Origin: a virus
Virus record (IMG/VR): IMGVR_UViG_3300029309_000410
Location: 1 to 21,046 of that record
Strand: one strand, 5' to 3'
Length of the DNA stretch: 21,046 bases
Of this stretch, positions 745 through 21,046 are shown in pieces (the first letter of the stretch is position 1; each line of letters opens with the position of its first letter). Under the pieces are notes generated by a model that had not been told where the DNA came from, did no database searches, and was given only the letters and a program-made list of their open reading frames with translations. Made by a program: the position numbers and the translations under genes.

Positions 745-767
745 AAATGCAAAATTAATTTTTAAAA

Positions 768-777
768 TCGTTAAATA
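768..777 (+). promoter_or_regulatory. Candidate promoter motif, class A, copy 1
   Basis: TCGTTAAATA lies 7 bases before the scaffold ATG, after a T/A-rich run. It differs by one base from TCGTTATATA, which is found exactly at 3034-3043 and 19634-19643, each time just upstream of a structural or packaging unit. The role is inferred from this recurrence only. Confidence 0.35.
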
Positions 778-784
778 AGTAATT

Positions 785-1447: not shown

Positions 1448-1458
1448 ATTAAATAAAA

Positions 1459-2373: not shown

Positions 2374-2388
2374 ATAATTTACAAAAGG

Positions 2389-2415
2389 GGTAGGGTTTTA
2401 CTCTACCTTTTTTTT
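2389..2415 (+). terminator. Intrinsic terminator after the capsid gene
   Basis: GGTAGGG (2389-2395) pairs with CTCTACC (2401-2407), giving seven pairs including one G-U, around a TTTTA loop. Eight T residues follow at 2408-2415. It starts 15 bases after the capsid stop codon and fits rho-independent termination. Confidence 0.8.
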
Positions 2416-2437
2416 AACCTTTTAAAAATATAATAAT

Positions 2438-2959: not shown

Positions 2960-2982
2960 TAAACTCTTAATATTAGTATAAT

Positions 2983-3009
2983 AAAGCACTCTTTTCAGGG
3001 TGCTTTTTT
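2983..3009 (+). terminator. Intrinsic terminator
   Basis: AAAGCACTC (2983-2991) pairs with GGGTGCTTT (2998-3006), with one T-G wobble, around the loop TTTTCA. The T run continues to 3009. It closes the single-gene unit at 2438-2959. Confidence 0.85.
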
Positions 3010-3033
3010 ATTTTACAAATTGACTTATTTTAA

Positions 3034-3043
3034 TCGTTATATA
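3034..3043 (+). promoter_or_regulatory. Candidate promoter motif, class A, copy 2
   Basis: TCGTTATATA stands between the terminator at 2983 and the ATG at 3048, a place where a new transcript must start if the terminator works. The same ten bases occur at 19634-19643, and a 9/10 match occurs at 768-777. A TTGAC lies at 3020-3024, but its spacing to the TATATA is too short for an ordinary sigma-70 pair. Confidence 0.42.
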
Positions 3044-3047
3044 CATA

Positions 3048-5380: not shown

Positions 5381-5382
5381 TT

Positions 5383-5895: not shown

Positions 5896-5990
5896 GATAC
5901 AAACCAAAAAAAAATAATGTAGAAAAATTAAAAACTTTTTTAAAAAGGAAAAAGAATAAACAAAAGATAAATTATGGCAAGTCTATTTAA
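5892..5990 (+). CDS. Very small basic protein (32 aa)
   Basis: An ORF of 32 codons starting at the ATG that overlaps the stop of the connector gene as ATGA, and ending 17 nt inside the fiber gene. The product is extremely basic, MRYKPKKNNVEKLKTFLKRK and onward, with no acidic patch. The coupling geometry favours translation, but the ORF is short, A-rich and without a recognised relative. It may serve only to carry ribosomes across the gap to the fiber start. Confidence 0.4.
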   Translation: MRYKPKKNNVEKLKTFLKRKKNKQKINYGKSI

Positions 5991-8900
5991 CACTAAAATA
6001 TCAAACACTTATGTAGGACTTATCAAGACTATTGATAATGCAGTTATTAGTGCATCATTAAGAGAGCTAACAGATGGTTCAGGTAATCAAACAGGTGTTT
6101 TTTTAAATAATGCAGGAGATTTTAAGGTAACAAATATTTTAGAATTTGGATCATTAAAAGATACAGGAGAAAGTATAACCATAACTAAGTTTGTAGATGA
6201 AGCAGATGGCATAGCAAATAATGATAATGACACATCTATTCCCACAAGTGCAGCAGTAAAAGATTTTGTTACCTCACAAATAACATTAGAGGACTTAGAT
6301 TTTAGTGGCGATAGTGGTACAGGTTCAGTAGATTTAGATAGTCAAGTATTTGCAATCGTAGGTACTGCAAACGAAATAGAAACATCAGCAGGTAGTCAGC
6401 AATTACAAATTGGAATACCATCAAATCCTGTATTTACAGGCGTTGTTACAGCAGATGGTTTAGATTTAGGCGATGATGAAAAAATAAGATTAGGTTCAGG
6501 TCAAGATTTTGAAATATACAATGACAGTAGTGGCAATATAATAGATAGTAAAGTTGCAGACCTTATAATACAAAACACTCACGATAACAAAGATATTATT
6601 TTTAAAAGTGATGATGGTTCAGGTGGAACTGCTACATATTTTAAATTAGATGGTAGTGCTTCTGTTACTGAATTTTCTTTAGATGTAAGAGTTGTTGATA
6701 ATAAAGGTGTTTTATTTGGCTCAGGTGGTGATTCATTTATAAAACATACAGGTAGCAATATGATATTACTTAATGATACAGGTGATATTACATTTACTAA
6801 CAGGGCAGATGATAAAGATATAATATTCCAATCAGATAATGGTTCTGGGGGGGTTGAAAATTATATACAAATAGATGGAAGCGAGGGAAGAACTACATTT
6901 AATAAAACAATAAGGTTAAATGATAATGTCCAATTACAAGTTGGTTCAAGTGCAGATTTGCAGATATTCCATACAGGTAGTTTAAGTCATATAAGAAATA
7001 ATACTGGTAATTTAGAAATAAGAAATCAAACAACAGGTTCTTCTAATATAGTTTTTAAAACCACTACTAGCAATGGTCTTGAAACTCTATTCAGTATGAT
7101 TGGTGCTGACTCAGAAGTTTTGTTTGAAAAAACAACACATCATAATGACAATGTACAAGCAAGATTTGGTAATGCAGGAGATTTAAGAATATTTCACAAT
7201 GGTAGTAACTCAGCTATTCAAGATTTAGGTACAGGTAATTTATTAATTGCAGGTACACAAGTAGATATAATGAATCCTGATTTTAGTGAATATAAAGCAA
7301 GATTTTTAACTGATGGAGCAGTAGAACTTTACCACAATAATTCAAAAAAGTTTGAAACAACAGCAGGTGGTGTTTCAATAACAGGTACAACAGATTCAAC
7401 AGGCACAATAACAGTAACAGGTGCAAGTAGCAATATTAGAGTTGGTACTGATACAGGTAAATTTTTAGCAGGTGCTTCAAATGACTTGCAAATTTATCAC
7501 GATGGCACAAATAGTTACATACAAGATGCAGGTACAGGAAGTTTAATTATTGAAGGTACTACATCAACACAAATTAAAGGCAGCAGTTTTGTTATTTTAA
7601 GGTCTTTAGCAGGAGAGAATATGCTTGTATGTAATGCTGATGATAGTGTTGATATATATTATGATGGTAGCAAAAAATTTGAAACTACATCTACAGGTGT
7701 TAGTGTTACAGGTAATATTGTTGGAAGTGGAAATTTAACACTTGATAATACAGGCGATGGTGCTTCAAGTGCAATAATTTTAGGTGGAGATGATTTAGGC
7801 AATAAAACTAATAGTATTTTATTTTCAGAAAATAGAAGTTCTGGCTCTATGACTTTTGGTTTTACTTTAACCAATGAGGGCAATACAAGTAATAACTTTA
7901 TAATTAAAAACCATAATAATGCTTCTACAGGCAACAATGCTTTAACAATAGCTAGAGATGATGGTGCTATTACCACAGGTGGAAATTTAACAGTAGCAGG
8001 AGATTTAACAGTTAATGGTACAACTACAACAGTAAATACAGATACACTAGCAGTTGAAGATCCTTTAATCTCAATGGCAAAAGACAATTCAGCTAATTCA
8101 GTTGATATTGGTTTTTATGGTAGATATAATGATGGTACAAATAGATATTTAGGTTTATTTGCAGATGCTTCAAATAGTAATAATTTCAAATTATTTAAAG
8201 GTTTAGAAACAGAGCCAACTACAACAGTTGATATAACTGCAACAGGATATTCAGCAGCAAGTTTAACTTTAGATAATTTAGAAACTTTAGGTTTTGTAGA
8301 TGCAAATTCAACTATAAGCTATGGTAACTCAATAGGTGTTTTAACTTTTGGTTCAGATAGAGCAATACTAAGAAGTGCATCAGGAAAATTATTAGAATTA
8401 CAAACTGATGGAGGAAGCACTACATTAACCTTAGACAACTCTCAAAACTCAAACTTTGCAGGTAATGTAAGTTTACCAGATAGTAAAACTTTAAATATAG
8501 GTACAGGAAATGATTTAAAAATATTGCACGATGGGACTAATTCTGTAATAAGTAATGAAACAGGAGATTTACAAATAATTAATAATGAAAATGATAAGGA
8601 TATTGTATTCTTTTCTGATAATGGTTCTGGAGGTATTGCTGAATATTTAAGACTTGATGGCTCAGATGCAAGAACTATTGCAAGTAGAGAAATAAGAACA
8701 GTTGATGGTGTTGCTTTTAAAGCAGGTAATAGTGGAGATTTATCTATTTTTCACGATGGAGGAGATAGTTCGATAGATAATTTAACAGGCGACTTAAATA
8801 TAAAAAACCAACAAAATAGTGGAGATATTATTTTTAGATGTGATAATGGGAATGGTGGTTTAATTGATTATTTTAGGTTAGATGGAAGTGAAGTCATAAC

Positions 8901-11037: not shown

Positions 11038-11038
11038 T

Positions 11039-11046
11039 TATATTTG
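11039..11046 (+). promoter_or_regulatory. Possible host-type -7 element (TAnnTTTG)
   Basis: TATATTTG matches the Bacteroidetes -7 consensus TAnnTTTG and lies in the 36-base gap between the fiber stop and the next ATG. No clear TTTG or TTG box is found about 20 bases upstream, so it is only a weak candidate for a lysis-region promoter. Confidence 0.25.
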
Positions 11047-11073
11047 AATATTATTAATTTAAATTTTTAAAAA

Positions 11074-11325
11074 ATGAGTAAAATAAGTAAAGAAGAACTA
11101 AAGCAATTACAAGAACAAGAACAAAAGAAAAGTGCAATATATCACGATCTAGGTGTACTAGAAACACAAAAACACAGTCTTAACCATTTATATACACAAG
11201 TTATGACTGAACAAAATGATTCTAAGAAAGAATTAGAAGAAAAGTATGGCAAAGTTAATATAGATTTAAAAGATGGAAGCTATACAGTAATAGAAGAAGA
11301 TGAAGAAAAAGGAGAAAATAAGTAA
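11074..11325 (+). CDS. Small coiled-coil phage protein (83 aa)
   Basis: An 83-residue protein with ISKEELKQLQEQEQKKSAIY, then LGVLETQKHSLNHLY, KKELEEKYGKVNIDLKDGSY and an acidic end. The first 60 residues are a probable coiled coil; the KKELEEKYGKVNIDLKDGSY turn-strand motif is one I recall from many marine phage hypothetical proteins next to fiber or lysis genes. There is no signal peptide or membrane segment. The function is unknown; a fiber-assembly chaperone or small virion component would fit the position. Its 3' end overlaps the endolysin gene by 26 nt. Confidence 0.72.
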   Translation: MSKISKEELKQLQEQEQKKSAIYHDLGVLETQKHSLNHLYTQVMTEQNDSKKELEEKYGKVNIDLKDGSYTVIEEDEEKGENK

Positions 11326-11788
11326 AAATATAAGCTATAAAGAAGCTACATATTCTGCTACTGCTACAAAGCATAAAATTAAGAATGTGCCAACAGAAGC
11401 ACACCTTAAAAATATGAAAACAATAGCAGAAAAAGTTTTTCAACCATTACGAGAGTGGTGTGAACATCCTATTCGTATTAATAGTTTTTATAGAAGTCCT
11501 GAATTATGTGATGCAATCGGATCAAATGGAAGAACCTCGCAACATACAAAAGGACAAGCAATAGATATGACTACTATGGGAGATAAAACTAATAGAGAGT
11601 TATTTGAATGGATAAAAGAAAACTTAGACTACGATCAAATGATATGGGAACTAGGTGGAGACCCTAATAAAGAGGGAACAAGTCCAAGATGGATTCATAT
11701 TTCTTATGTTAGTAAAAAAGCAAATAGAAATAGAACATTACAAGCAAAAGCAAAAGGTTCACAAATAACTTATTATGTGATGTCGTGA
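11300..11788 (+). CDS. M15-family peptidase endolysin
   Basis: A 162-residue zinc peptidase of the M15 (VanY or D-Ala-D-Ala carboxypeptidase/endolysin) type, which cuts peptide bonds in the peptidoglycan stem to open the host wall. The core is complete: PIRINSFYRSPELCDAIG at 57-74, SQHTKGQAIDM at 80-90 with zinc ligands H82 and D89, and the terminal WIHISY with ligand H133. There is no signal peptide or wall-binding domain, so export should depend on the holin encoded at 12367. The start at 11300 overlaps the preceding gene by 26 nt; no better downstream Met precedes the conserved core except M39, which would remove an N-terminal helix. Confidence 0.85.
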   Translation: MKKKEKISKNISYKEATYSATATKHKIKNVPTEAHLKNMKTIAEKVFQPLREWCEHPIRINSFYRSPELCDAIGSNGRTSQHTKGQAIDMTTMGDKTNRELFEWIKENLDYDQMIWELGGDPNKEGTSPRWIHISYVSKKANRNRTLQAKAKGSQITYYVMS

Positions 11789-11934
11789 GATACGAGGTTG
11801 CATTAATTGATAGATCAATAAGTGGTTTTACTTTTATAGTAGGGGTTTCAATACACCCAAAAGATAATGAAAATGATTTTTTAGAAATTAATCTATATTT
11901 TCTTTTTTTAGTATTACATATTAAAATATATTAA
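11785..11934 (+). CDS. Small hydrophobic phage protein, GTG start (49 aa)
   Basis: A 49-residue ORF that starts with GTG in a GTGA overlap with the endolysin stop and ends one base before the next ATG. It reads RYEVALIDRSISGFTFIVGV, then a short polar segment, FLEINLYFLFLVLHIKIY and stop. The C-terminal FLEINLYFLFLVLHIKI segment is strongly hydrophobic with a basic end. It resembles small phage proteins I recall near lysis genes, ending in xINLYFLFxxxxI. A membrane-associated accessory lysis protein is possible. The exact fit between its neighbours supports it despite the alternative start codon. Confidence 0.6.
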   Translation: MRYEVALIDRSISGFTFIVGVSIHPKDNENDFLEINLYFLFLVLHIKIY

Positions 11935-11935
11935 A

Positions 11936-12370
11936 ATGCCAATACCTAAACCACAAAAGAACGAGAAGCAAAAAGACTTTATGATGAGGTGTGTGCCTGA
12001 ACTTTCTAAATATCACAAGAAAGATCAAGCAATAGCTATGTGTTACGATGCTTATAAAAAGGTAGAATTAGAATCGTATAATGACTACCCTAAAGGTGCA
12101 TCAAACAACGCTAAAAGAGCAATAGAGTGGAAAGAAAAAAATGGTAGTTCTTGTGGTACACAGGTAGGATGGACTAGAGCTAGACAACTAGCAGACAGAA
12201 AAAATATAACAAGAGACACGATAGCTAGAATGGCATCATTTAAGAGACATCAAAAAAATAAAGATGTGCCTTATTCAGAGGGTTGTGGTGGTATAATGTG
12301 GGATGCTTGGGGTGGTTCAGCAGGTATTAACTGGGCAATAAATAAACTTAAAGAAATAGATAAAAAATGA
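11936..12370 (+). CDS. Stand-alone marine-phage domain protein (YNDYP/GWTRARQLA type)
   Basis: A 144-residue protein of two parts. Residues 1-45 begin MPIPKPQKNEKQKDFMMRCV and include AIAMCYDAY, a short unit common at the start of marine phage head-associated proteins. Residues 48-143 contain YNDYPKGASNNAKRAIEWKE, SCGTQVGWTRARQLA, RDTIARMASFKRH, DVPYSEGCGGIMWDAWGG and INWAINKLK. I recall this second domain as a C-terminal extension of phage head proteases and as free proteins; its function is not known to me. Conserved Cys, His and Trp residues suggest a compact fold that might bind metal or nucleic acid. Here it is free, placed between lysis genes, and overlaps the holin as ATGA. Confidence 0.75.
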   Translation: MPIPKPQKNEKQKDFMMRCVPELSKYHKKDQAIAMCYDAYKKVELESYNDYPKGASNNAKRAIEWKEKNGSSCGTQVGWTRARQLADRKNITRDTIARMASFKRHQKNKDVPYSEGCGGIMWDAWGGSAGINWAINKLKEIDKK

Positions 12371-12774
12371 AACAAATACTAGCAAAAATATTTGGTGGTG
12401 CAGGTAGTAGCATAGCTGATAAAATTTCAGGAGTAGTAGATAAATTTGTACAGACAAAAGATGAGAAAGCTGAATTTGAAAAAGAAATGACAGAAATATT
12501 TATGTCTCACGAATTATCTTTAGAAAAAGAAATTACATCAAGACACGCTTCTGATATGCAAAGTGATAGTTGGCTTTCTAAAAACATAAGACCTCTACTA
12601 ACTATTTTTAGTTTAGTTTTATATACACTATTTGCTATTACTGATGGCAATATAGGAGAGTTTAATATTGCAAATCAATATGTAGATTTATTAGGTCAGA
12701 TAGTAATTATGAGTTTAGGTTTTTATTTCACATCTAGGGGTATAGAAAAGACTGCAAAAATACTTAGAAAATAA
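12367..12774 (+). CDS. Holin, 3TM/GTA-holin-like
   Basis: A 135-residue protein with an N-terminal amphipathic helix (MKQILAKIFGGAGSSIADKI), a charged helix (about 25-60), and the family-like stretch RHASDMQSDSWLSKNIRPLL at 59-78. Two clear membrane segments follow, about 77-92 (LTIFSLVLYTLFAIT) and 107-122 (DLLGQIVIMSLGFYFT), with a basic C-terminus. The RPLL-plus-TM layout is typical of the holin family named for gene-transfer-agent release (3TM holins). Holins form the timed inner-membrane lesion that releases the endolysin, here the M15 enzyme two genes upstream. Its start overlaps the preceding stop as ATGA. Confidence 0.78.
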   Translation: MKQILAKIFGGAGSSIADKISGVVDKFVQTKDEKAEFEKEMTEIFMSHELSLEKEITSRHASDMQSDSWLSKNIRPLLTIFSLVLYTLFAITDGNIGEFNIANQYVDLLGQIVIMSLGFYFTSRGIEKTAKILRK

Positions 12775-12899
12775 TGCCAAAAAAAATAATATCTACTTAT
12801 AGAAAGAGGAAAAGAACCTCACACCCACACAGCAAAAATGCAAGTAGATTAAAGACATCAAAACAATACAAGAAAAAATATAGAGGTCAAGGTAGATAA
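12774..12899 (+). CDS. Tiny basic phage protein ending KQYKKKYRGQGR (41 aa)
   Basis: A 41-residue ORF in a TAATG overlap with the holin stop. It is almost entirely Lys, Arg, Ser, His and Asn: PKKIISTYRKRKRTSHPHSK, a middle segment, and KQYKKKYRGQGR at the end. I recall this C-terminal KxYRGQGR motif from many marine and Bacteroidetes phage small proteins, which supports it as a real gene. A net charge this high suggests nucleic-acid or membrane binding; the function is unknown. Confidence 0.65.
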   Translation: MPKKIISTYRKRKRTSHPHSKNASRLKTSKQYKKKYRGQGR

Positions 12900-13030: not shown

Positions 13031-13038
13031 TATATTTG
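13031..13038 (+). promoter_or_regulatory. Possible host-type -7 element (TAnnTTTG)
   Basis: TATATTTG fits the Bacteroidetes -7 consensus. It would start a transcript about 155 bases before the NinG-like gene, placing the hairpin and T/C tract in the leader. No convincing -33 box is visible, so support is weak. Confidence 0.28.
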
Positions 13039-13058
13039 TCATCCTGTCGCAAATCAGT

Positions 13059-13077
13059 CTAAGTTGCAAAACTTTAG
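13059..13077 (+). other. Small hairpin with GCAA loop
   Basis: CTAAGTT (13059-13065) pairs with AACTTTAG (13070-13077) with one bulged T, closing a GCAA loop of the stable GNRA type. No T run follows directly, so a leader-RNA or protein-binding element is more likely than a terminator. The stem is short and could be chance. Confidence 0.3.
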
Positions 13078-13178
13078 GTAACCACTCCTATTGGATCGTG
13101 TAAATAAAATTGTTTTTTTTTTAGGGGGGTATTTTTCTTTTCTTTTTTCTTTTTGTTTACTTTTTCTTTTTTCTTTTC

Positions 13179-13192
13179 TTTGTTTATAATTA
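13179..13192 (+). promoter_or_regulatory. Candidate promoter motif, class B, copy 1
   Basis: TTTGTTTATAATTA lies 7 bases before the NinG-like ATG and contains a perfect TATAAT. A 13/14 copy is at 13664-13677 and a 12/14 copy at 17498-17511, each in a noncoding gap before replication-type genes. Confidence 0.42.
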
Positions 13193-13199
13193 TAATAAT

Positions 13200-13598
13200 A
13201 TGCCTAGAAAGGTTACTAGAAAATCATTAATAAAAAGATTAGATACAATATTTAGTCTATATATAAGACTAAGAGATGCAGATAAAAATGGTTTTTGTAC
13301 TTGTATAACTTGCAAGAAAAAGTATCATTACAAAGAATTAGATGCAGGTCATTTTTTAAGTCGCAGACATTTCTCTGTGCGATATGATACAGAGAATGTA
13401 TATAGCCAGTGCCGATATTGTAATAGATATAATGCAGGACAGCAGTATATTTATAGTATAGAATTAGAAAAAAAAGAAAGTGGATTACCTAAAAGACTAC
13501 TAGAAAAATCAAAAAAAACAGTAAAATTATCAAATGATGATCTTATTTCGTTAATAAATAGGTATAAAGAATTTGTCAAGTTAATGGAAAATAATTAA
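13200..13598 (+). CDS. NinG/Rap-like recombination nuclease
   Basis: A 132-residue protein. Residues 1-30 form a basic helix (KSLIKRLDTIFSLYIRLRDA). A zinc and HNH-like core follows: CTCITC at 33-38, ELDAGHFLSRRHFSVRYDTE at 46-65, then NVYSQCRYCNRYNAG at 66-80. This matches the lambda NinG (Rap) family, which cuts recombination intermediates such as D-loops and Holliday junctions. The spacing CxxC...H...H...N...CxxCN is complete. The C-terminal part is helical and basic. It stands alone between two promoter-like gaps, just ahead of an ERF/SSB module, so a role in phage recombination is likely. A general HNH endonuclease is the alternative. Confidence 0.8.
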   Translation: MPRKVTRKSLIKRLDTIFSLYIRLRDADKNGFCTCITCKKKYHYKELDAGHFLSRRHFSVRYDTENVYSQCRYCNRYNAGQQYIYSIELEKKESGLPKRLLEKSKKTVKLSNDDLISLINRYKEFVKLMENN

Positions 13599-13663
13599 TT
13601 TTGATAAGTTCTGTTCATTTTGTCTTTGGGGAAAAGGGGGTAAATTTAGGTTTATCTCTTTTT

Positions 13664-13677
13664 TTTGTCTATAATTA
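13664..13677 (+). promoter_or_regulatory. Candidate promoter motif, class B, copy 2
   Basis: TTTGTCTATAATTA differs by one base from the copy at 13179-13192 and includes a TATAAT-type box. It lies 54 bases before the ATG at 13732, so transcription could start within or after the inverted repeat that begins at its last base. Confidence 0.42.
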
Positions 13678-13704
13678 GGTTATTAAATATTTTTTTAATA
13701 ACTT
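13677..13704 (+). promoter_or_regulatory. Inverted repeat, possible operator or leader hairpin
   Basis: AGGTTATTAAA (13677-13687) pairs with TTTAATAACTT (13694-13704): nine perfect pairs, then a G-T and an A-T, around a six-base loop. It directly follows the class B motif, and no T run comes after it. This position suits a repressor operator or a 5'-leader hairpin better than a terminator. Confidence 0.4.
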
Positions 13705-13731
13705 AGATGTAAGTTTAATTAAAAATTTATT

Positions 13732-13929
13732 ATGACAGAACCAATAGTTGAAGAACTTAAAACTAAAGATCAAATAAACTTAGAGGAAACAATAAGGGAA
13801 TGTGAGTTTGATATTACATATCACACTAAAGAAAGAGATAGACATAACAGACATCTCGATATTCGCAAAAGAGCATTAGAGGACTTAAAGGATGAACACC
13901 AACGAAAGTATGGAGAAACACAATTATAG
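13732..13929 (+). CDS. Small charged helical protein (65 aa)
   Basis: A 65-residue protein, first of the replication operon. It opens MTEPIVEELKTKDQINLEET and continues with alternating Lys, Arg, Glu and Asp residues (DITYHTKERDRHNRHLDIRK), consistent with one long amphipathic helix. It has no Cys pair, membrane segment or catalytic motif. No family is recognised. The strong leader features upstream and the overlap with the next gene indicate a true, early-expressed protein; a small regulator or partner protein is possible. Confidence 0.6.
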   Translation: MTEPIVEELKTKDQINLEETIRECEFDITYHTKERDRHNRHLDIRKRALEDLKDEHQRKYGETQL

Positions 13930-14083
13930 TTCCTTAATGGTCAAGTATCTAAGTCATAGAGTAGAAGCATTAGAAAAAGCTCTTGATAAAGAGAAAGAGA
14001 AAACTAAGACACTAACTGGTGTTTTAGAATTTAAACAAATACAAATTGAAAAGTTAATTGATGAAAAAAGAACCCACATTTAA
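13892..14083 (+). CDS. Small coiled-coil protein (63 aa)
   Basis: A 63-residue protein with SHRVEALEKALDKEKEKTKT followed by a further helical stretch; residues about 15-60 form a likely coiled coil. The ATG at 13892 gives a 38-nt overlap with the preceding gene; a second ATG at 13910 (MEKHNYSS) would shorten the overlap to 20 nt and is a reasonable alternative. It overlaps the ERF gene by 23 nt. No family is recognised. Confidence 0.52.
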   Translation: MNTNESMEKHNYSSLMVKYLSHRVEALEKALDKEKEKTKTLTGVLEFKQIQIEKLIDEKRTHI

Positions 14084-14594
14084 TGAAAAAATTGCTAAGG
14101 TTCAAACAGAACTAAAAGCAAAAAAAACCAAGTTTAATAAATTTGGCAAGTATTATTACAGGTCAGCAGAAGATATACTAGAAGCTATAAAACCTTTTTT
14201 AATACCACTAGGACTAACAGTAAGAATTAATGAAAAACTTATTGATAGTCATACCATAAAATCAACAGCAATAATTACTGATGGTTTAATGCGAATGAAA
14301 GCAAGTGCAATAGTAGGTGTAGAACTAGATCAAAAGGGTATGCAAATGCCACAAAAATTTGGAACTGCTAGTAGCTATGGTAAAAAATATGCACTTGGTA
14401 ATTTGTTTCTGATAGATGACACACAAGATGCAGATGCCACACACAACCATAATAACAAACCTAAAATCACTAAAGGTACAAAAGACTGGTTTGATGTTAT
14501 AAAAGTTTTAAAGGCAGGTAAATCTATGAGTTATGTAGAAGAAAAATACAAAGTAACACAAGATCAAAAAACAGAACTAGAATCTTTAATTTAA
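14061..14594 (+). CDS. erf: ERF-family single-strand annealing protein
   Basis: A 177-residue protein of the ERF recombinase family, which coats single-stranded DNA and anneals complementary strands during phage recombination. Key segments are NKFGKYYYRSAEDILEAIKP (about 26-45), a middle beta region with VRINEK and IKSTAIITDG, and the hallmark GTASSYGKKYALGNLFLIDD (101-120) followed by the DADATH acidic stretch. The last 50 residues form a separate small helical part. I choose the ATG at 14061 over the TTG one codon upstream. It is followed at once by an SSB-like gene, a common pairing because annealing proteins often act through SSB. Confidence 0.82.
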   Translation: MKKEPTFNEKIAKVQTELKAKKTKFNKFGKYYYRSAEDILEAIKPFLIPLGLTVRINEKLIDSHTIKSTAIITDGLMRMKASAIVGVELDQKGMQMPQKFGTASSYGKKYALGNLFLIDDTQDADATHNHNNKPKITKGTKDWFDVIKVLKAGKSMSYVEEKYKVTQDQKTELESLI

Positions 14595-14604
14595 AAATTA
14601 TATT

Positions 14605-14919
14605 ATGAGTTTATTAATTAGTACGAGTATTAGGGTAGATAAACTACCTAAAGAAAAATTTGTTAAAGGCAAAGATGGTGCAGTTTATTACAACTTTACT
14701 ATTTCTGTAAATGACCAAACTAGATTTGGTAATAATGTATGGCTTTATGATTCTCAAAGTAAAGAAGAAAGAGAAGCAAAAAAGAAAAAACATACACTAG
14801 GAAATGGAAAAGTAATATGGACTGATGGTAATGTTCAACTTGCAGAAAAGCAACAAAACACAGAACATATAATTGCAGGTACAGAAGATGCCTACAAGAA
14901 AGAAGATTTACCATTTTAA
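14605..14919 (+). CDS. ssb: Single-stranded DNA-binding protein, short OB-fold type
   Basis: A 104-residue protein with an OB-like beta pattern: SIRVDKLPKEKFVKGKDGAV, YYNFTISVNDQ, FGNNVWLYDSQSKEER and TLGNGKVIWTDG. Its C-terminal tip, KKEDLPF, mimics the acidic DDDIPF-type end with which SSB recruits partner enzymes. It lacks the long glycine-rich linker of host SSB and is shorter than the usual 150-180 residues, as in several marine phages. It follows the ERF gene by ten bases and is closed by a terminator, so ERF and SSB form the end of one unit. Confidence 0.75.
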   Translation: MSLLISTSIRVDKLPKEKFVKGKDGAVYYNFTISVNDQTRFGNNVWLYDSQSKEEREAKKKKHTLGNGKVIWTDGNVQLAEKQQNTEHIIAGTEDAYKKEDLPF

Positions 14920-14945
14920 GAAATTGTTTTTTAATTTTTCTAATT

Positions 14946-14984
14946 AGAGGGTAGAGTGTTATTATTTTACCCTCTTTTTTTTTT
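14946..14984 (+). terminator. Intrinsic terminator after the SSB-like gene
   Basis: AGAGGGTA (14946-14953) pairs perfectly with TACCCTCT (14968-14975), closing a 14-base loop. A run of ten T residues (14975-14984) follows. It lies only 12 bases before the next ATG, so downstream genes need read-through or an internal promoter. Confidence 0.82.
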
Positions 14985-14995
14985 ATATTTAGATA

Positions 14996-15814
14996 ATGAC
15001 AAACCACCAAGACTTAATGAGACAGATAGAGCAGACCTGTTTCATAGACACAAACAAAGAACTATCATACCCACCAGTTGCAATCTCAATGGGAGAGAAG
15101 CTAATAAAATCTAGCACAGGAGACCAACTGCTACCAGTACCAATAGGAACTTATGGATCATTTAGCTTTGTACAAGCAGCACCAAAAACTAAAAAAACTT
15201 TTTTTATATCTTTGTTAGCGAGTGTATATTTGTCAGGGGGTAATACTTTTGGTGGAAACATTAAAGGTCATAGAAATGGCAGATGCCTTTTACACTTTGA
15301 CACAGAGCAAGGTTCTTGGCATTGTGGTAGAGTTTTTAAAAGAGTTCTATCAATGAACAAATACAATGAACAAGGGTGCTATCATACTTATAGTTTGAGA
15401 ACACTTATGCCAAAAACAAGAGTAGAATTTATAGAGCATTGTTTTAAGACAAAAGAAAACATAGGATGCTGTATTATTGATGGGGTTGCAGATTTATGTA
15501 ATGATGTAAATAATATACAAGAAGCAAATGATGTTGTACAGAAAATAATGGAGTGGAGTGAAGTTTACAATATACATATTATATTAGTAATACACAGTAA
15601 TTTCGGCTCAGACAAACCAACAGGACATCTAGGAAGTTTCCTAGAAAAGAAAACAGAAACACAAATACAACTTGAACAAAACAGCGTACACAAAGAACGA
15701 ATTACAGTTAAGTGTAAAAGAAGCAGAGGTTACGCTTTTGATACTTTTAGCTTTGAGGTTAATGAGTTAGGACTACCAATAATAGTTGGGGATTTATATG
15801 ATCCTCTTGACTAA
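14996..15814 (+). CDS. RecA-fold ATPase, RepA/AAA_25-like, with unusual P-loop
   Basis: A 272-residue ATPase of the RecA-like group, related to RepA-type hexameric helicases and AAA_25 proteins. The P-loop is at 61-68, AAPKTKKT, where the canonical GxxxxGK[ST] has lost both glycines (A61 and K66 instead), while K67 and T68 are kept. LLHFDTEQG (98-106) and the Walker B strand GCCIIDGVADL (157-167) follow, then a sensor-like LVIHSNFGS near 197-205. The C-terminal part contains KRSRGYAFDTFSFEV. It probably moves along or loads on DNA in phage replication or repair. It lies downstream of ERF and SSB. A non-helicase KaiC/RadA-type role cannot be excluded. Confidence 0.72.
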   Translation: MTNHQDLMRQIEQTCFIDTNKELSYPPVAISMGEKLIKSSTGDQLLPVPIGTYGSFSFVQAAPKTKKTFFISLLASVYLSGGNTFGGNIKGHRNGRCLLHFDTEQGSWHCGRVFKRVLSMNKYNEQGCYHTYSLRTLMPKTRVEFIEHCFKTKENIGCCIIDGVADLCNDVNNIQEANDVVQKIMEWSEVYNIHIILVIHSNFGSDKPTGHLGSFLEKKTETQIQLEQNSVHKERITVKCKRSRGYAFDTFSFEVNELGLPIIVGDLYDPLD

Positions 15815-15822
15815 GAGTAGTT

Positions 15823-16302
15823 ATGATAAAAAAAAGTATGAAGTTGTTGTTCGCAAAGAATAATGACTGGATAGAAATTTGTAGGTCGTTTGGTTTAGAT
15901 TATGAGACATCTTGTGATTTAGTACAAGAAATGTATATCAAAATACAACTAAAACTAGAAAAAGGTTTAGACATTAGCTATGGTAAACACGAAATAAATT
16001 ATTATTATATCTACTTAACATTAAGAACAATGTTTATTGATCTAAAGAGAAAGGGTAAAAATATAAAAAGAGTAGGTACAGAAAAGTTAAGAGCAGCACA
16101 GACAGACATTGACTATGAGGGAAAGTATAAAATAATATTAGAAGCATTAGACAATATGTACTGGTATGATAAAAAAGTCTTTTTGATGCTAAACCAAGAA
16201 GATGAAAGCGTAGCATCACTATCACGAAAAACAGGAATACCATACTACTCACTATATAACACATACAATAAAGTAAAAGAAAAGTTAAAAAAATTACTAT
16301 GA
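15823..16302 (+). CDS. Sigma-70-like (ECF-type) transcription factor
   Basis: A 159-residue protein with two sigma-like regions. Residues about 14-80 resemble region 2: NDWIEICRSFGLDY, CDLVQEMYIKIQLKL and YIYLTLRTMFIDLKRKGKN, the last being the promoter-melting type of helix with basic residues. Residues about 110-159 resemble region 4: WYDKKVFLMLNQEDESVASL followed by SRKTGIPYYSLYNTYNKVKE, a helix-turn-helix that would read a -35 box. The size and layout match small extracytoplasmic-function sigma factors. I recall related genes in Bacteroidetes phages. It would redirect host RNA polymerase to phage promoters. A plain helix-turn-helix regulator is the alternative. Confidence 0.68.
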   Translation: MIKKSMKLLFAKNNDWIEICRSFGLDYETSCDLVQEMYIKIQLKLEKGLDISYGKHEINYYYIYLTLRTMFIDLKRKGKNIKRVGTEKLRAAQTDIDYEGKYKIILEALDNMYWYDKKVFLMLNQEDESVASLSRKTGIPYYSLYNTYNKVKEKLKKLL

Positions 16303-16724
16303 ATGATGTTTTTCAATCTGATTTGAAAGTAGGAAAAATATATGAAAACATTGTATTAGAAAAAATACAAGAAAAATACCCAAAAGCATATATACAAAAA
16401 GGATATTGTAAAGACTGGGATATATATATACCTGAATTAGAAATAGGAGTAGAGGTCAAGTCTGATAAAAAAAGTATGCACACAGGCAATATAGTAATAG
16501 AAATAGAATTTAATAATAAACCCTCAGCATTAAGTACAACAAAAGCTAAGTGGTGGGTAATATATGATGGCTTACAATATAATTGGTTTATGGTAAACAA
16601 CATAAAAAAATGTATAACAGAAAACAATTTGACATATAAAAAGTTTGTAGGTAGAGGAGATACTAAACAAAAAAAAGCATATCTTATAAAAAAAGAATTA
16701 CTATATAAATATAAAAAAATATGA
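16299..16724 (+). CDS. PD-(D/E)XK nuclease-like protein, first copy
   Basis: A 141-residue protein with the core of a PD-(D/E)XK nuclease: an N-terminal helix with E16, then CKDWDIYIPELEIGVEVKSD at 37-56. D41 and the E52-V-K54 triad would bind the catalytic metal. A conserved STTKAKWWVIYDG segment (79-91) follows, and the C-terminus is basic. The compact size resembles phage Holliday-junction or VRR-type nucleases. It begins in an ATGA overlap with the sigma-like gene. Processing of recombination or replication intermediates is likely. The fold call is from motif spacing; the substrate is unknown. Confidence 0.68.
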   Translation: MNDVFQSDLKVGKIYENIVLEKIQEKYPKAYIQKGYCKDWDIYIPELEIGVEVKSDKKSMHTGNIVIEIEFNNKPSALSTTKAKWWVIYDGLQYNWFMVNNIKKCITENNLTYKKFVGRGDTKQKKAYLIKKELLYKYKKI

Positions 16725-16879
16725 AATTAGGAGACATAGTAGAAAAAGTAATAAACATAATCACATTAGGACAAGGAAAAAAGATAGCTACTTGGATAGC
16801 TAAAAAATTAGGTTATGATTCTTGTGGTTGTGATGAAAGAAAAGAATCACTAAACAATATTAAAATAAAAAGATGGTAA
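16721..16879 (+). CDS. Small phage protein with CGCDERKESLN motif (52 aa)
   Basis: A 52-residue ORF in an ATGA overlap with the preceding gene. It opens MKLGDIVEKVINIITLGQGK, then WIAKKLGYDSCGCDERKESL. The GDxVEKV start and the CGCxERKxxLN motif are shared, as I recall, with a widespread small phage protein family that usually continues to an FPY-type end; this one stops early at KIKRW. Two close cysteines might hold a metal. It overlaps the next gene by seven bases. The function is unknown, but the motif makes it a real gene. Confidence 0.68.
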   Translation: MKLGDIVEKVINIITLGQGKKIATWIAKKLGYDSCGCDERKESLNNIKIKRW

Positions 16880-17085
16880 TTAAATTTAATAAAGATGACC
16901 GACAAAAATGGAAGAAATTTCGTATGGCAAAAAAATCAGTCATATCAAGAAAAGAATTTGAATTGGTATGCGACTTGCACCGATTCTACTATAAGCATAA
17001 ACTACCAAACCCTTGCACCTGTTCCCCAAAGCAGATAAATCAATGGATAGCTGATTTAAATAAGATTTGGGATAATGGGAATTAG
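16873..17085 (+). CDS. Small phage protein with LHRFYYKHKLPNPCTCSP motif (70 aa)
   Basis: A 70-residue, basic protein. It starts VIKFNKDDRQKWKKFRMAKK and has a conserved-looking second half: LVCDLHRFYYKHKLPNPCTC, then SPKQINQWIADLNKIW. The LHxxYYxH...PCxC...WIxDLNxxY pattern is known to me from phage proteins of unknown role, often next to the CGCxERK family seen directly upstream. The Cys and His residues could bind zinc. It overlaps the next gene by 11 nt. No enzymatic motif is visible. Confidence 0.68.
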   Translation: MVIKFNKDDRQKWKKFRMAKKSVISRKEFELVCDLHRFYYKHKLPNPCTCSPKQINQWIADLNKIWDNGN

Positions 17086-17494
17086 TAAAATACATAAGTG
17101 GGAAAGAGCTGTAACTATGATTCTAAATGTAATAGGTTGGGATTTAGAATGGACTGGTGGTAAATATGAATCGTTTGATGCTCGTGGATATACACCAAAA
17201 AACAAATCTTGCATAATAGAATATAAGTTTCGTGATAAATACTATGAAGAAAAATTATTAGAAGTAAAAAAATATAAAGCATTAATGGAAACACCTGATG
17301 TCGAAGTAAGGTTGTATTTTGTTAATGATCCTAAAGGAAATTATATGTATTGGCTAGACAATCTACAAATGCCAAATGCTATAAAATTATATTGTCCTGA
17401 CACATCTTTTTGGACTAAGAAAAGACTAAAGAAAGAGGTGTATTTACTAAAAGAAAATGATGCCAGTATAATAAATCTTAATAATACTTATTGA
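17075..17494 (+). CDS. PD-(D/E)XK nuclease-like protein, second copy
   Basis: A 139-residue protein with a short restriction-endonuclease-like core: WERAVTMILNVIGWDLEWTG at 9-28 (E10), then YESFDARGYTPKNKSCIIEY at 31-50, where D35 and E49-x-K51 form the expected triad. It continues with a beta-alpha tail including VRLYFVNDPKG and YMYWLDNLQ. It shares only the catalytic layout with the gene at 16299, so the two are not recent duplicates. It begins in an 11-nt overlap with the preceding gene. A nuclease acting on host or recombining DNA is likely; the substrate is unknown. Confidence 0.65.
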   Translation: MGISKIHKWERAVTMILNVIGWDLEWTGGKYESFDARGYTPKNKSCIIEYKFRDKYYEEKLLEVKKYKALMETPDVEVRLYFVNDPKGNYMYWLDNLQMPNAIKLYCPDTSFWTKKRLKKEVYLLKENDASIINLNNTY

Positions 17495-17497
17495 ATA

Positions 17498-17511
17498 TTT
17501 GTTAATAATTT
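17498..17511 (+). promoter_or_regulatory. Candidate promoter motif, class B, copy 3
   Basis: TTTGTTAATAATTT matches 12 of 14 positions of the copy at 13179-13192. It lies in the 30-base gap between the nuclease stop and the small ORF at 17525, followed by TATATT. It is the weakest of the three copies. Confidence 0.32.
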
Positions 17512-17524
17512 GTATATTGCAGGT

Positions 17525-17659
17525 ATGTCATTCTTAACTAACAATGAAATAAAAACAATTAGAACCTCGCAACTTAAAGGAGAGCTTACATCCTGCATTA
17601 AGTTAGCAAATAGAATATTAGAGGAACTAAGTGTAAGAGAACAAGAGGAAGAACAGTAA
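17525..17659 (+). CDS. Small acidic helical protein (44 aa)
   Basis: A 44-residue ORF: MSFLTNNEIKTIRTSQLKGE, then a helical segment LANRILEELSVREQEEEQ. It is mostly one amphipathic helix with an acidic end. No family is recognised. It lies between a candidate promoter and a strong hairpin, which would make it a single-gene unit, so it might be a small regulator. Its support is codon pattern and position only. Confidence 0.5.
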   Translation: MSFLTNNEIKTIRTSQLKGELTSCIKLANRILEELSVREQEEEQ

Positions 17660-17676
17660 TCTTGTTTAGACAAAAT

Positions 17677-17715
17677 GGGTGGGTTTTAGTCGCATGAAGC
17701 GACAAAACCACACCC
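17677..17715 (+). other. Strong G+C-rich hairpin
   Basis: GGGTGGGTTTTAGTCGC (17677-17693) and GCGACAAAACCACACCC (17699-17715) form about 16 pairs with one bulged base on each side, around the loop ATGAA. It is the most stable hairpin I find in this A/T-rich window. The bases after it, TTATTAAG, are a poor T run, so it could be a weak terminator, an RNA processing or stability element, or a protein-binding site. Confidence 0.7.
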
Positions 17716-17740
17716 TTATTAAGAACTTAAAAATAAAATT

Positions 17741-17971
17741 ATGCCAATAACAAACGAAATATTTGAATCATACAGAATAGAAGAAAGAGTAAAAGAACAA
17801 TTATCTGCAATAAAATTATTAGTAGCACAAGGATATACCATACTAGATTTAGAGGGTAATATATTAAATAAACATACTATAAATTTAAAACAAGACACAT
17901 ATCATAAAGCAAGACCTAGATATGATTATAAAAGAGTTATAGAAAAAAAATTAGAAGATGAGACAGTATAG
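17741..17971 (+). CDS. Hypothetical early phage protein (76 aa)
   Basis: A 76-residue protein: ITNEIFESYRIEERVKEQLS, a short hydrophobic turn with LLVAQGYTILDLEGNIL, and a basic end with RPRYDYKRVIEKKLEDE. The middle VAQGYTILDLEGNIL looks like a helix followed by a beta-hairpin. No family is recognised. It starts 25 bases after the G+C-rich hairpin and overlaps the following small membrane ORF by 14 nt. It is a credible gene of unknown function. Confidence 0.6.
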   Translation: MPITNEIFESYRIEERVKEQLSAIKLLVAQGYTILDLEGNILNKHTINLKQDTYHKARPRYDYKRVIEKKLEDETV

Positions 17972-18086
17972 ATCAAGACAAGGCAGGAGTGATGAGAAAT
18001 ATACAGAAAGTGCAAAAGCTACACTTATATCTATATTAGGTTTGATAATAACATTTTTATACATATTATATGATAGTATTGTTTGA
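17958..18086 (+). CDS. Single-span membrane miniprotein (42 aa)
   Basis: A 42-residue ORF bridging two larger genes, overlapping the first by 14 nt and the exonuclease by 17 nt. The N-terminal half is polar and basic (MRQYRSRQGRSDEKYTESAK); the second half, ATLISILGLIITFLYILY, is a clear membrane helix. Topology rules favour an N-in arrangement. The function is unknown; it may modify the host membrane or anchor a complex. The neat bridging of the gap supports translation. Confidence 0.55.
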   Translation: MRQYRSRQGRSDEKYTESAKATLISILGLIITFLYILYDSIV

Positions 18087-18783
18087 TGCAGACAGCTTAG
18101 TATTTGCAAGTTGTTATAGGACTAGAAAAAAAGATGAGGAACTAGAAGATATATATTATAGAGACATTAAAGATGCAGCAGGTAAATTTGATGAGCAGTT
18201 TATGAAAATAATAAACGAGATAGATGAGGTATATGATGTGCAGAATGTCATAACATTTAATGGAAGCAAAGGAAACTTTAGGAAAAAGATTACACCAGTA
18301 TATAAAGCAAACAGAAAAAACCAAGAGTTACCACCACTATTACACGAGCTGCACGATTATGTAAAACAAAATTACAGTAGTGTGTATGGGTATGGCGTAG
18401 AAACAGATGATCTAGTGGCAAAACATTGGTACGAAATACAAAAAGAAGCAGGTAGAGAACAAGTAATAATATGTGCAATAGACAAAGACTATAAACAGTT
18501 TAATTGTTTAATGTGGAATTATCATAAAAAAGAAGTTATAGACATAACAGAACAAGAAGCTCTATACAACTTTTACGAACAAATGATAGCAGGAGATAGT
18601 GCAGACAATGTAAACTACTTTAGAGGTAAAGGAAAAAAGTTTTCACAGAAATACTATAAAGGATGCAAAACAAAATACCAATACACTAAAAAACTATACG
18701 AATTATTTAGAAAAGAATACAAAGGCAAGGCAAGACAGAAATATGTAGAATGTTATAATTTATTAAAATTACGAAATGACTAA
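18070..18783 (+). CDS. 5'-3' exonuclease / flap endonuclease (T4 RNase H-like)
   Basis: A 237-residue nuclease with the acidic metal-binding set of the FEN/5'-3' exonuclease family: LFDADSLVF (D6, D8), YKANRK (78-83), the VETDDLVAK loop (E111, D113, D114), IDKDYKQF (D138, D140) and the helix-hairpin region IAGDSADN (D176, D179). These residues match those used for two-metal cleavage of 5' flaps and RNA primers. It is shorter than many relatives, so the C-terminal helical part is reduced. It would remove primers or make the single-stranded ends used by the ERF protein. The 8-nt overlap with the next gene suggests co-expression. Confidence 0.82.
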   Translation: MIVLFDADSLVFASCYRTRKKDEELEDIYYRDIKDAAGKFDEQFMKIINEIDEVYDVQNVITFNGSKGNFRKKITPVYKANRKNQELPPLLHELHDYVKQNYSSVYGYGVETDDLVAKHWYEIQKEAGREQVIICAIDKDYKQFNCLMWNYHKKEVIDITEQEALYNFYEQMIAGDSADNVNYFRGKGKKFSQKYYKGCKTKYQYTKKLYELFRKEYKGKARQKYVECYNLLKLRND

Positions 18784-19243
18784 TTTAAAACCTTTAGAAA
18801 TAGCAAACAAGATAATAGAACTATCAGGAATAAATATATTTGAAGATAGTAGAAAAAAACACATAGTAGAAATGAGATCACTACTTATACACATACTAAG
18901 AGAAAAACTAGGTATGAGATGGGTAAACATAGCACTATTCTTAAAAGCAAATAATAAACCAGTAAATCACGCTACACTTATACACAGCGTAAAGAACTTT
19001 GAAATGTATAAAAAAGACAACAAAAAAATACAAGAGATATACAACATATTTTCTTTTAGAAGCAATTTAGGTATAGATGAGATAGACAGAATACACTACC
19101 TAGAAAACAAGTGCAGCACATTACAAAAAAAACTAGAAAACCCATTAGTAAAATTAGTAATAGAAGTTCCTAACGATAGAGACAAAATAGAAAGCATAGA
19201 GAGAGTAGTTAAGAGTTGGAAATGGAAAGAAAAAGTATTATAA
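18776..19243 (+). CDS. DnaA domain IV-like DNA-binding protein
   Basis: A 155-residue protein whose residues about 20-78 resemble the DNA-binding domain IV of DnaA: SRKKHIVEMRSLLIHILREK, a following helix GMRWVNIALFL, and VNHATLIHSVKNF (63-75). The last fits the DnaA signature around the KHST helix that contacts the DnaA box. No AAA+ domain is present, so it is not a full initiator. The remaining part is a coiled coil (about 100-125) and a basic tail. It could mark the phage origin, recruit a helicase, or interfere with host DnaA. It sits between the exonuclease and a nucleotide-pool enzyme. Confidence 0.7.
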   Translation: MTNLKPLEIANKIIELSGINIFEDSRKKHIVEMRSLLIHILREKLGMRWVNIALFLKANNKPVNHATLIHSVKNFEMYKKDNKKIQEIYNIFSFRSNLGIDEIDRIHYLENKCSTLQKKLENPLVKLVIEVPNDRDKIESIERVVKSWKWKEKVL

Positions 19244-19626
19244 TGGAAACAGACAAAAAGAAAAGAAAACAAATACCTATATATACAGGACTAATTAAAT
19301 ATTTTCCTAAGGCACTAGCTGAGGTTGCTAAAGTGTCTTATGTAGGAAATCAACAGCACCATCCTGACAAACCTTTACATTGGGATAGAGCAAAAAGCAC
19401 AGATGAATTAGATGCACTTACTAGACATTTATTTGAAGCAGGTAAAGTTGATACTGATGGTCAGCTTCACTCAGCAAAGGTAGCTTGGAGAGCATTAGCG
19501 AACCTAGAAAAAGAACTAGAGAACAAAAGAGATGAAAAATGGTACAAGGATCAATACAATAGAAACAGAGAACCTAAAGACCAAATAGGATATGATGAAC
19601 AATTTGGAGACTATATAAAACGATAA
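19243..19626 (+). CDS. dATP/dGTP diphosphohydrolase-like protein (DUF5664 / MazZ-type N-domain)
   Basis: A 127-residue protein with the stretch IPIYTGLIKYFPKALAEVAK (11-30), then VSYVGNQQHHPDKPLHWDRA (31-50), DELDALTRHLFEAG (54-67) and HSAKVAWRALANLEKEL (76-92). This matches my memory of the phage DUF5664 family, annotated as the N-terminal domain of a dATP/dGTP diphosphohydrolase (all-alpha, MazG-like). The E and D residues of EVAK and DELDA are the likely metal ligands. Related enzymes help build 2-aminoadenine genomes. The ATG at 19243 is chosen because it overlaps the preceding stop as TAATG; an ATG nine codons earlier would add MEMERKSII. Confidence 0.72.
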   Translation: METDKKKRKQIPIYTGLIKYFPKALAEVAKVSYVGNQQHHPDKPLHWDRAKSTDELDALTRHLFEAGKVDTDGQLHSAKVAWRALANLEKELENKRDEKWYKDQYNRNREPKDQIGYDEQFGDYIKR

Positions 19627-19633
19627 ATTTTTT

Positions 19634-19643
19634 TCGTTATATA
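19634..19643 (+). promoter_or_regulatory. Candidate promoter motif, class A, copy 3
   Basis: TCGTTATATA, identical to 3034-3043, follows a run of seven T residues in the 43-base gap before the small terminase gene. It is followed by an AATTAATTAATTAATA palindromic run. The position fits a promoter for the packaging genes. Confidence 0.42.
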
Positions 19644-19669
19644 ATTAATTAATTAATATTTTATTAATA

Positions 19670-19942
19670 ATGGATAAAAGAAAAAATAATGGTGGACACT
19701 CTACAAAAGGTTTTGCAGGGAGACCAAAAAAAGCTGATGAGGAAAGGTTAATAGAAAAGCTAGATAATCTTATAGACAATGATGAGGTTATTAAAACATT
19801 AGGTAAAAAAATTAAAGAGGGTTCAGATAGAGCTATGAGCTTGTACTTTGGGTATAGATATGGTAAACCAAAAGAATCAGTAGATATTAATTCTAGTGAG
19901 GGTTTTAATATCAATTTTAAAGACCTGATAAACTTTAAATGA
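19670..19942 (+). CDS. terS: Terminase small subunit
   Basis: A 90-residue protein with NGGHSTKGFAGRPKKADEER, a helical LIEKLDNLIDNDEVIKTLGK, and GSDRAMSLYFGYRYGKPKES in the middle, then a short acidic end. The GRPKKADE and YxxYRYGKPKE features are typical of small terminase proteins in this phage group. They bind the packaging start site and regulate the large subunit. It is shorter than many (about 120-180 residues). The gene lies directly before the large terminase and overlaps it as ATGA, which is the main support for the call. Confidence 0.75.
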   Translation: MDKRKNNGGHSTKGFAGRPKKADEERLIEKLDNLIDNDEVIKTLGKKIKEGSDRAMSLYFGYRYGKPKESVDINSSEGFNINFKDLINFK

Positions 19943-21046
19943 TAGACATAAACAAAAAGTATGCACCTATCACACAAACAGATTCACGCTACTTTATAAT
20001 AACTGGGGGTAGAGGGTCAGGAAAATCTTTTAGCATAAACCTCTTATTAGTCTTGCTTACATACGAGAAAGGTCATACAATACTTTTTACAAGATATACA
20101 CTAGCATCAGCTTATGTGTCTATTATTCCTGAATTTATAGAGAAGCTAGAACTGCTTAATATATTTGATGACTTTTATATAACAAAAGATGAGATCAAAA
20201 ATAAGCGTTCAGGAAGCAAGATAATCTTTAAGGGTATTAAGACATCAAGTGGAGATCAAACAGCTAATCTAAAGTCATTACAGGGCGTTACAACCTTTGT
20301 TTTAGATGAAGCAGAGGAATTGACCTCAGAGGACACATTTGACAAAATAGACCTATCTGTTAGACAGCAGGGAAGTCATAATAGAGTGATCTTAATACTA
20401 AACCCTACTAGCAAAGAACATTGGATATATAGAAGATACTTTGAGGACAAGGGAATACAAGAGGGGTCTAATACAACCAAAGACAATATTACATATATAC
20501 ATACAACCTACATAGACAACAAAGAAAACCTATCAGAAAGCTATTTACAACAAATAGAGAATATAAAGAAAAGGAGACCTGAGAAATACAAGCATCAAAT
20601 GTTAGGTGGGTGGTTAAGTGCAGCAGAGGGTGTTATATTTACTAATTGGAATATAGGTAAATTCAAAGAAGTAGGTAAAACTGTATATGGGCAAGACTAT
20701 GGCTTTGCATCAGACCCAAGCACATTAGTTGCAACCAGTATAGACATATCTAACAAAAAGATATATTTAAAAGAATGTTTTTATAAACCTAGACTGGTTA
20801 CCAGTCAGCTAGTTTCTTTAAACAAACAGTTTGCAGGGGATTCTTTAATAGTAGCAGATTCAGCAGAACCTAGACTAATTTCAGAAATAAGAGCAGCAGG
20901 ATGTAATATAGTTCCAAGTATAAAAGGGCAAGGATCAATAACTTTTGGTATTAGCTTATTGCAAGACTATGATTTAATAGTAGATGAGGACAGTATTAAC
21001 CTCATCAAAGAGCTAAACAATTATGCTTGGTTAGAACGAAAATCTA
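19939..21046 (+). CDS. terL: Terminase large subunit, 5' part (369 codons, runs off the window)
   Basis: The ORF is open from the ATGA overlap to the window end without a stop. The N-terminal ATPase has Walker A GGRGSGKS (23-30), Walker B FVLDEAEEL (120-128, D123 and E124) and the coupling motif LNPTSKEHW. It is the DNA-packaging motor. The nuclease domain begins with GQDYGFASDPSTL, where D253 is the first metal ligand, and continues with VADSAEP, where D307 is the second. The third acidic residue lies beyond the window. The pattern fits the PBSX-type (Terminase_3) family. It belongs with the small subunit upstream; portal and head genes would be expected next in a circular or permuted map. 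Confidence 0.93.
   Translation, partial: MIDINKKYAPITQTDSRYFIITGGRGSGKSFSINLLLVLLTYEKGHTILFTRYTLASAYVSIIPEFIEKLELLNIFDDFYITKDEIKNKRSGSKIIFKGIKTSSGDQTANLKSLQGVTTFVLDEAEELTSEDTFDKIDLSVRQQGSHNRVILILNPTSKEHWIYRRYFEDKGIQEGSNTTKDNITYIHTTYIDNKENLSESYLQQIENIKKRRPEKYKHQMLGGWLSAAEGVIFTNWNIGKFKEVGKTVYGQDYGFASDPSTLVATSIDISNKKIYLKECFYKPRLVTSQLVSLNKQFAGDSLIVADSAEPRLISEIRAAGCNIVPSIKGQGSITFGISLLQDYDLIVDEDSINLIKELNNYAWLERKS

Follow-up and report, generated by a model that had tools for sequence, protein, structure and literature searches.

We believe that a sigma factor of ECF architecture, encoded by this marine phage and made early, very probably directs the host RNA polymerase to late promoters with leaderless or near-leaderless starts. 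The fold, the conservation of the gene, the promoter consensus, and the placement, polarity and co-occurrence of the sites were computed; from these we infer polymerase binding, promoter recognition, timing and the start site. Phage late sigma factors are already known, but an ECF-type one with leaderless geometry in a large lineage of flavobacterial phages looks new. The lineage is common, with hundreds of viral contigs, and its closest cultured relatives infect a marine flavobacterium.

The sigma gene and its predicted fold

The window is the whole stretch of DNA that was analysed, a 21,046-base virus record that is a piece of a tailed phage genome. Nearly all of its genes lie on the plus strand, and the main features are these:

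About 785-12,800: virion genes, including a major capsid-like gene at 1459, the portal gene at 3488 and an endolysin-like gene at 11300
13200..19626, plus strand: early/replication block that holds the sigma gene
15823..16302, plus strand: predicted phage ECF-type sigma factor (from its AlphaFold2 fold and conservation), 159 aa, ATG start; sigma2 at about residues 1-80, linker at 81-95, sigma4 at 96-159
19670..21046, plus strand: terminase pair, made up of terS (terminase small subunit, 19670-19942, downstream of late promoter 3) and the start of the large subunit, which runs off the contig end

The earlier note had reported a 159-aa protein encoded in the replication operon, with segments resembling sigma regions 2 and 4. 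The open reading frame is there, on the plus strand with an ATG start, and conserved counterparts occur in hundreds of viral contigs. It is not a chance reading frame, because relatives are encoded in 362 matched stretches of IMG/VR and 40 columns are invariant across 35 aligned members. Contigs carrying a sigma 96-98% identical to that of the window are up to 32 kb long. The gene sits inside the early/replication block among genes for NinG/Rap-like, ERF, AAA ATPase, nuclease-like, 5'-3' exonuclease and DnaA-C-like proteins. Its immediate neighbours are the AAA ATPase and the nuclease-like protein, and no linked anti-sigma was recognised among them.

Sequence searches with generic models say little about this protein. 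The window protein itself has no match in Pfam and none in a sequence search of the PDB; its best PHROG match has no known function, and its match to the PHROG "RNA polymerase sigma factor" is insignificant. Its relatives fare better. Sigma70_r2 is weakly matched by 27 of the 35 (best E 5e-4), and the P12024L-type relatives pass the Pfam curated cut-off with 25-35 bits against a required 24. A scan of sequenced bacteria and archaea returned no relatives, and therefore no prophage host can be named.

The structure is more informative. The earlier note had proposed comparing an AlphaFold model with ECF sigma factors, the lack of sigma 2/4 folds being what would speak against it; that comparison was run, and the model and its PDB superpositions show sigma2 and sigma4. 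The AlphaFold2 model, built from the 35-relative alignment, has a mean pLDDT of 84 and eight helices in two bundles, at about residues 1-80 and 96-159. Foldseek places sigma factors at the head of its PDB ranking, with ECF sigmas first among them and a single match at E<=0.001. Superposed as a whole chain the model fits poorly, with a large rmsd, and only the separate domains fit well: by VIA-align, sigma4 (96-159) fits region 4 of E. coli sigmaE bound to -35 DNA with an rmsd of 1.6 A over 64 residues, and sigma2 (1-76) fits SigR at 2.1 A over 71 residues. There is no sigma1.1 or sigma3 domain, the size is under about 200 aa, and only a short low-confidence linker lies between the bundles. On the strength of this model we read the product as a sigma factor of ECF architecture, sigma2 plus sigma4. 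Among the stretches with little or no variation are QEMY, FxDLKRK and, in the last helix, SLYNTY; by analogy with other sigmas these would contact core polymerase and DNA.

Several other elements of the early block deserve mention. A terminator-like hairpin (14946-14975, 13 pairs and a T run) lies just 5' of the AAA ATPase and sigma genes and might delay or tune expression of the sigma. The gene at 16299-16724 overlaps the sigma stop codon and encodes a restriction-endonuclease-like product (weak ScaI/DpnII match); in P12024L a VRR-NUC gene likewise abuts the sigma gene, but on the other side. The protein encoded at 18776-19243, present in 18 of 21 genomes, has a weak match to the DnaA C-terminal helix-turn-helix and is possibly a replication protein. 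Rfam and tRNA scans of the window gave no matches.

Predicted late promoters and the geometry of their starts

The sites of the TCGTTATATA motif described in the earlier note are real, at 3034-3043 and 19634-19643, and TCGTTAAATA at 768-777 joins them. In the collected loci, A/T runs aside, CGTTATATA is the top 9-mer for intergenic bias (120 intergenic occurrences and 28 coding; 11% expected). It occurs about five times per genome, on the gene strand, at the heads of late operons. From 34-37 dereplicated sites the late promoter consensus is TACAAA(A/T)T, about 13 nt, and then CGTTATATA. The TACAAA(A/T)T block spans -21 to -14 relative to the C of CGTT, and its spacing is fixed, with A at -18 to -16 in 33/37, 35/37 and 34/37 sites. 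The -35 is weak at the terS promoters; upstream of terS the motif block is almost invariant in about 70 loci despite differing upstream sequence.

With the window's own clade left out of its training set, a promoter matrix picks up three sites in the window and no more. Their C of CGTT is at 769, 3035 and 19635, and each of them heads a structural or packaging operon. These score 27.6-28.1 bits; the next best position scores 7.0 and the best in 40 shuffles 13.5. They are listed here with the other control elements of the window:

748..784, plus strand: predicted late promoter 1, 27.6 bits; -35 TGCAAAAT at 748-755, -10 CGTTAAATA at 769-777; predicted start A781, 4-nt leader, ATG at 785; operon of the 785 gene, the major capsid-like gene at 1459 and the gene at 2438
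2983..3006, plus strand: intrinsic terminator, 10-pair stem and T run, immediately 5' of late promoter 2
3014..3047, plus strand: predicted late promoter 2, 28.0 bits; -35 TACAAATT at 3014-3021, -10 CGTTATATA at 3035-3043; predicted start A3047, 1-nt leader, ATG at 3048; operon of the 3048 gene and the portal gene at 3488
13031..13038, plus strand: host-type TATATTTG (-7 element), 5' of the early block containing the sigma gene
19614..19669, plus strand: predicted late promoter 3, 28.1 bits; weak -35 TATAAAAC at 19614-19621, -10 CGTTATATA at 19635-19643; predicted start A19647, 23-nt leader with the palindrome TTAATTAATTAA, terS ATG at 19670

The terminator at 2983..3006 is an operon boundary.

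Across 21 near-whole genomes the same late operon heads carry the motif, for the most part 3-7 nt 5' of their ATG; at terS the distance is at least 24 nt. For the 117 CGTTA sites that have a start codon no more than 60 nt away, the distance from the C to the ATG peaks sharply at 12 (42 sites), with further peaks at 13 (15) and 16 (12), and hardly any distances are shorter than 12; gene starts come from a simple ATG-first caller, and individual distances can be wrong. Control words show no peak in their distance to the start codon. Sites with a more distant ATG retain T at +11 and a purine at +12 all the same, in 28/36 and 35/36 sites and also in 13/17 and 16/17. Since these two positions are kept wherever the ATG lies, the start site would be at C+12 regardless of where the ATG is, which points to the purine at that position as the first transcribed base. 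For late mRNAs the prediction is accordingly that many have the AUG at their very 5' end (37 distinct sites) and most others a leader of 1-5 nt. Strictly leaderless starts are predicted in relatives and not in the window, whose predicted leaders are 4, 1 and 23 nt.

The longest of these leaders has features of its own. The terS leader (19647-19669), like 37 distinct leaders of relatives, contains a palindrome that reads TTGATTAATCAA, TTAATTAATTAA or TTAGTTAACTAA or takes a less strict form, and the 3' arm of which is repeated just before the ATG; the first arm and the distal arm stay complementary in 33 of 37 variants. This is perhaps a hairpin or an operator controlling terS. Elsewhere, near the early region of relatives (for example G002:863, G004:5905 and G011:1963), there is a CGTTATATT variant preceded by GTTAATAA-type sequence, which may be a second promoter or operator class. 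A further intergenic word, TTTTGTTTATA, was examined as a possible promoter class.

Sigma and promoter across the lineage

The promoter and the sigma gene travel together. CGTTATATA is present in all 32 records tested, often in about five copies and mostly on one strand, and a reversed control word is rare; either the sigma or the linked terS gene had been the basis for selecting these records. Picking contigs by promoter pattern alone recovers the sigma in 10/10 of those that are 20 kb or longer. When the length limit is lowered to 15 kb, 11 of the 16 contigs tested have it, and the five without it are all fragments under 19 kb. Records picked by terS contain the sigma in 16 of 27 cases. We considered whether the other 11 contradict the link and rejected this. 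They extend no more than about 4 kb upstream of terS, and the two genes are 2.7-5.9 kb apart in genomes that have both, so these records are uninformative because their sequence ends roughly where the sigma gene lies.

It is important to realize that such co-occurrence is in part the result of shared ancestry within a single phage lineage, and that the counts are inflated by relatedness. What speaks most strongly against descent alone is the fixed geometry of the start site, together with the sigma-less controls and the distant lineages. In five flavophages that lack the sigma (11b, phi10:1, 6H, P12002L and P2559S) CGTTATATA is at background, and among 362 starts in the five sigma-less cultured flavobacterial phages none has CGTTA at 12. 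Identity falls to 27% for the sigma of the nearest cultured relatives, the Nonlabens phages P12024L and P12024S (profile E 1.5e-10). These phages carry CGTTA just before the ATG at seven operon heads, with AAAACAAA 13-14 nt upstream in six of the seven. Two further lineages that are also distant, with sigmas at 36% and 27.5% identity, have CGTTAT 12 nt before late genes. At 27-36% identity, then, the sigmas go with the same CGTTA core and the same geometry, about 12 nt before the ATG at late genes. The P12024L proteins present in most of the 21 genomes are virion/packaging-region proteins (the large terminases of the window and P12024L are 56% identical), and the sole recognisable transcription factor common to both lineages is the sigma. 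The earlier note had inferred a link between this gene and the TCGTTATATA motif; intergenic bias, co-occurrence, the sigma-less controls and the distant lineages, all of them computed from sequence, support it.

The proposed switch, its rivals and known systems

The flavobacterial housekeeping consensus is TTTG/TANNTTTG, with TANNTTTG as the -7 element (PMC6847099). The span of late promoters takes up about half of each genome, yet 22 of 25 intergenic TATATTTG sites fall outside it (binomial about 1e-4, related genomes not being independent). The simplest reading is a two-step switch, with the host sigma serving the early block and the phage sigma the late operons. The host housekeeping sigma would transcribe the early block, including the sigma gene, from the TATATTTG promoter. 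The phage sigma would then bind host core RNA polymerase and send it to TACAAA(A/T)T - 13 nt - CGTTATATA promoters heading the packaging and virion operons. Initiation would fall on the purine 12 nt past the C of CGTT, at the AUG or 1-5 nt before it in most late operons, so that late mRNAs would be leaderless or nearly so. Directly 3' of the host-type TATATTTG in the window, at 13039-13200, lies GTCGCAAATCAGTCTAAGTTGCAAAACTTTAGG, which contains the word GTCGCAAAT; in relatives this word favours intergenic DNA (18 to 2). The stretch has no Rfam match and is a possible leader or small RNA.

Three other explanations of the motif have to be weighed. We consider it unlikely that a host sigma, housekeeping or ECF, serves the CGTTATATA promoters and that the phage protein has another role, for example as an anti-host decoy. 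Bacteria do have ECF-type -10 elements containing CGT, and a sigma-70-like scan flags 3020-3049 too. However, the flavobacterial consensus (PMC6847099) is unlike CGTTATATA and the host-type sites are mostly in the other half of these genomes. A host sigma would also have to be squared with the disuse of the motif in the five flavophages without the phage sigma and with the sigma's presence in every long promoter-picked contig tested.

We give still less weight to the idea that the motif is an activator site for another conserved phage DNA-binding protein. The DnaA-C-like protein is one candidate, with its weak helix-turn-helix match and wide distribution, but it was not found in some genomes, nor was a match to it in P12024L, although that phage retains the geometry of the promoters and shares only the sigma as a recognisable transcription factor. 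A pair of blocks spaced like a -35 and a -10, with a start site at a fixed distance, resembles a sigma promoter and not an operator. Least credible, in our opinion, is that the motif is a translation-initiation element in the mRNA. Its position 3-7 nt before the ATG at most sites would suit such an element, but the same core stands far upstream of the ATG at terS, and the -35 block and the T/purine start hold their spacing to CGTT, the T/purine start not holding it to the ATG. We therefore prefer a phage sigma acting on host polymerase.

A further suggestion is that the phage sigma couples late transcription to leaderless translation, the promoters putting the start site on the AUG. We hold this only tentatively, and are equally hesitant about its corollary that at the late switch the virion programme shifts to another mode of translation initiation in hosts without Shine-Dalgarno signals (flavobacteria). 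In F. johnsoniae 87% of transcripts with probable promoters have leaders of more than 10 nt (PMC6847099), and phage transcripts are said often to be leaderless (PMC5312081). The leaderless geometry, if true, bears on translation start in Bacteroidetes, where most mRNAs have leaders and no Shine-Dalgarno signal.

In a partial literature search we found no paper on how phages of this lineage turn on their late genes, nor one on ECF-type phage late sigmas or Bacteroidetes phage late promoters. The early-to-late switch proposed here is complete and checkable, with a reader gene, a promoter sequence and predicted start sites, and P12024L with its Nonlabens/Persicivirga host is a cultured test pair. 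P12024L and P12024S have a homologous sigma-like gene (record note "containing Sigma-70 region 2"), related virion genes and the same promoter geometry, AAAACAAA - 13/14 nt - CGTTAATA - ATG. They differ in having CGTTAATA as the -10 instead of CGTTATATA and a spacer about one nt shorter; their record labels the sigma product a hypothetical protein and annotates no promoters.

Group 4 (ECF) sigmas such as E. coli sigmaE (1or7, 2h27) and M. tuberculosis SigL (6dv9) are likewise small and built of sigma2 and sigma4. A CGT-type -10 element occurs in ECF promoters and in the late promoters that the phage sigma would recognise. The phage -35 is TACAAAWT and not of the GGAAC type known from ECF sigmas. 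A linked anti-sigma factor is common, though not universal, for ECF sigmas; the phage sigma differs in having none recognised among its neighbours and in being phage-encoded in an early block. Unlike ECF sigmas, most members of the phage family are missed by generic Pfam models at the curated cut-off.

The late promoters of the phiKZ nvRNAP are given as TATG with the start at G (cited in PMC5312081), and on that citation they come close to the ATG-at-start geometry here, but phiKZ uses a phage multisubunit polymerase and our proposal is a sigma on host polymerase. Among phage middle and late sigma factors, T4 gp55 and SPO1 gp28 and gp34 are known (PMC9429907). In the literature searched, leaderless geometry is not among the features described for them, unlike what we predict. 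T4 gp55 also has no typical sigma4 domain and acts together with gp33/gp45, and in both respects it differs from the sigma here. Two marks of a late sigma are a gene outside the late region and a distinct promoter class ahead of the late operons, and both are present in this lineage. These phage-made sigmas redirect host polymerase to later phage promoters, and we propose that the phage sigma described here does the same.
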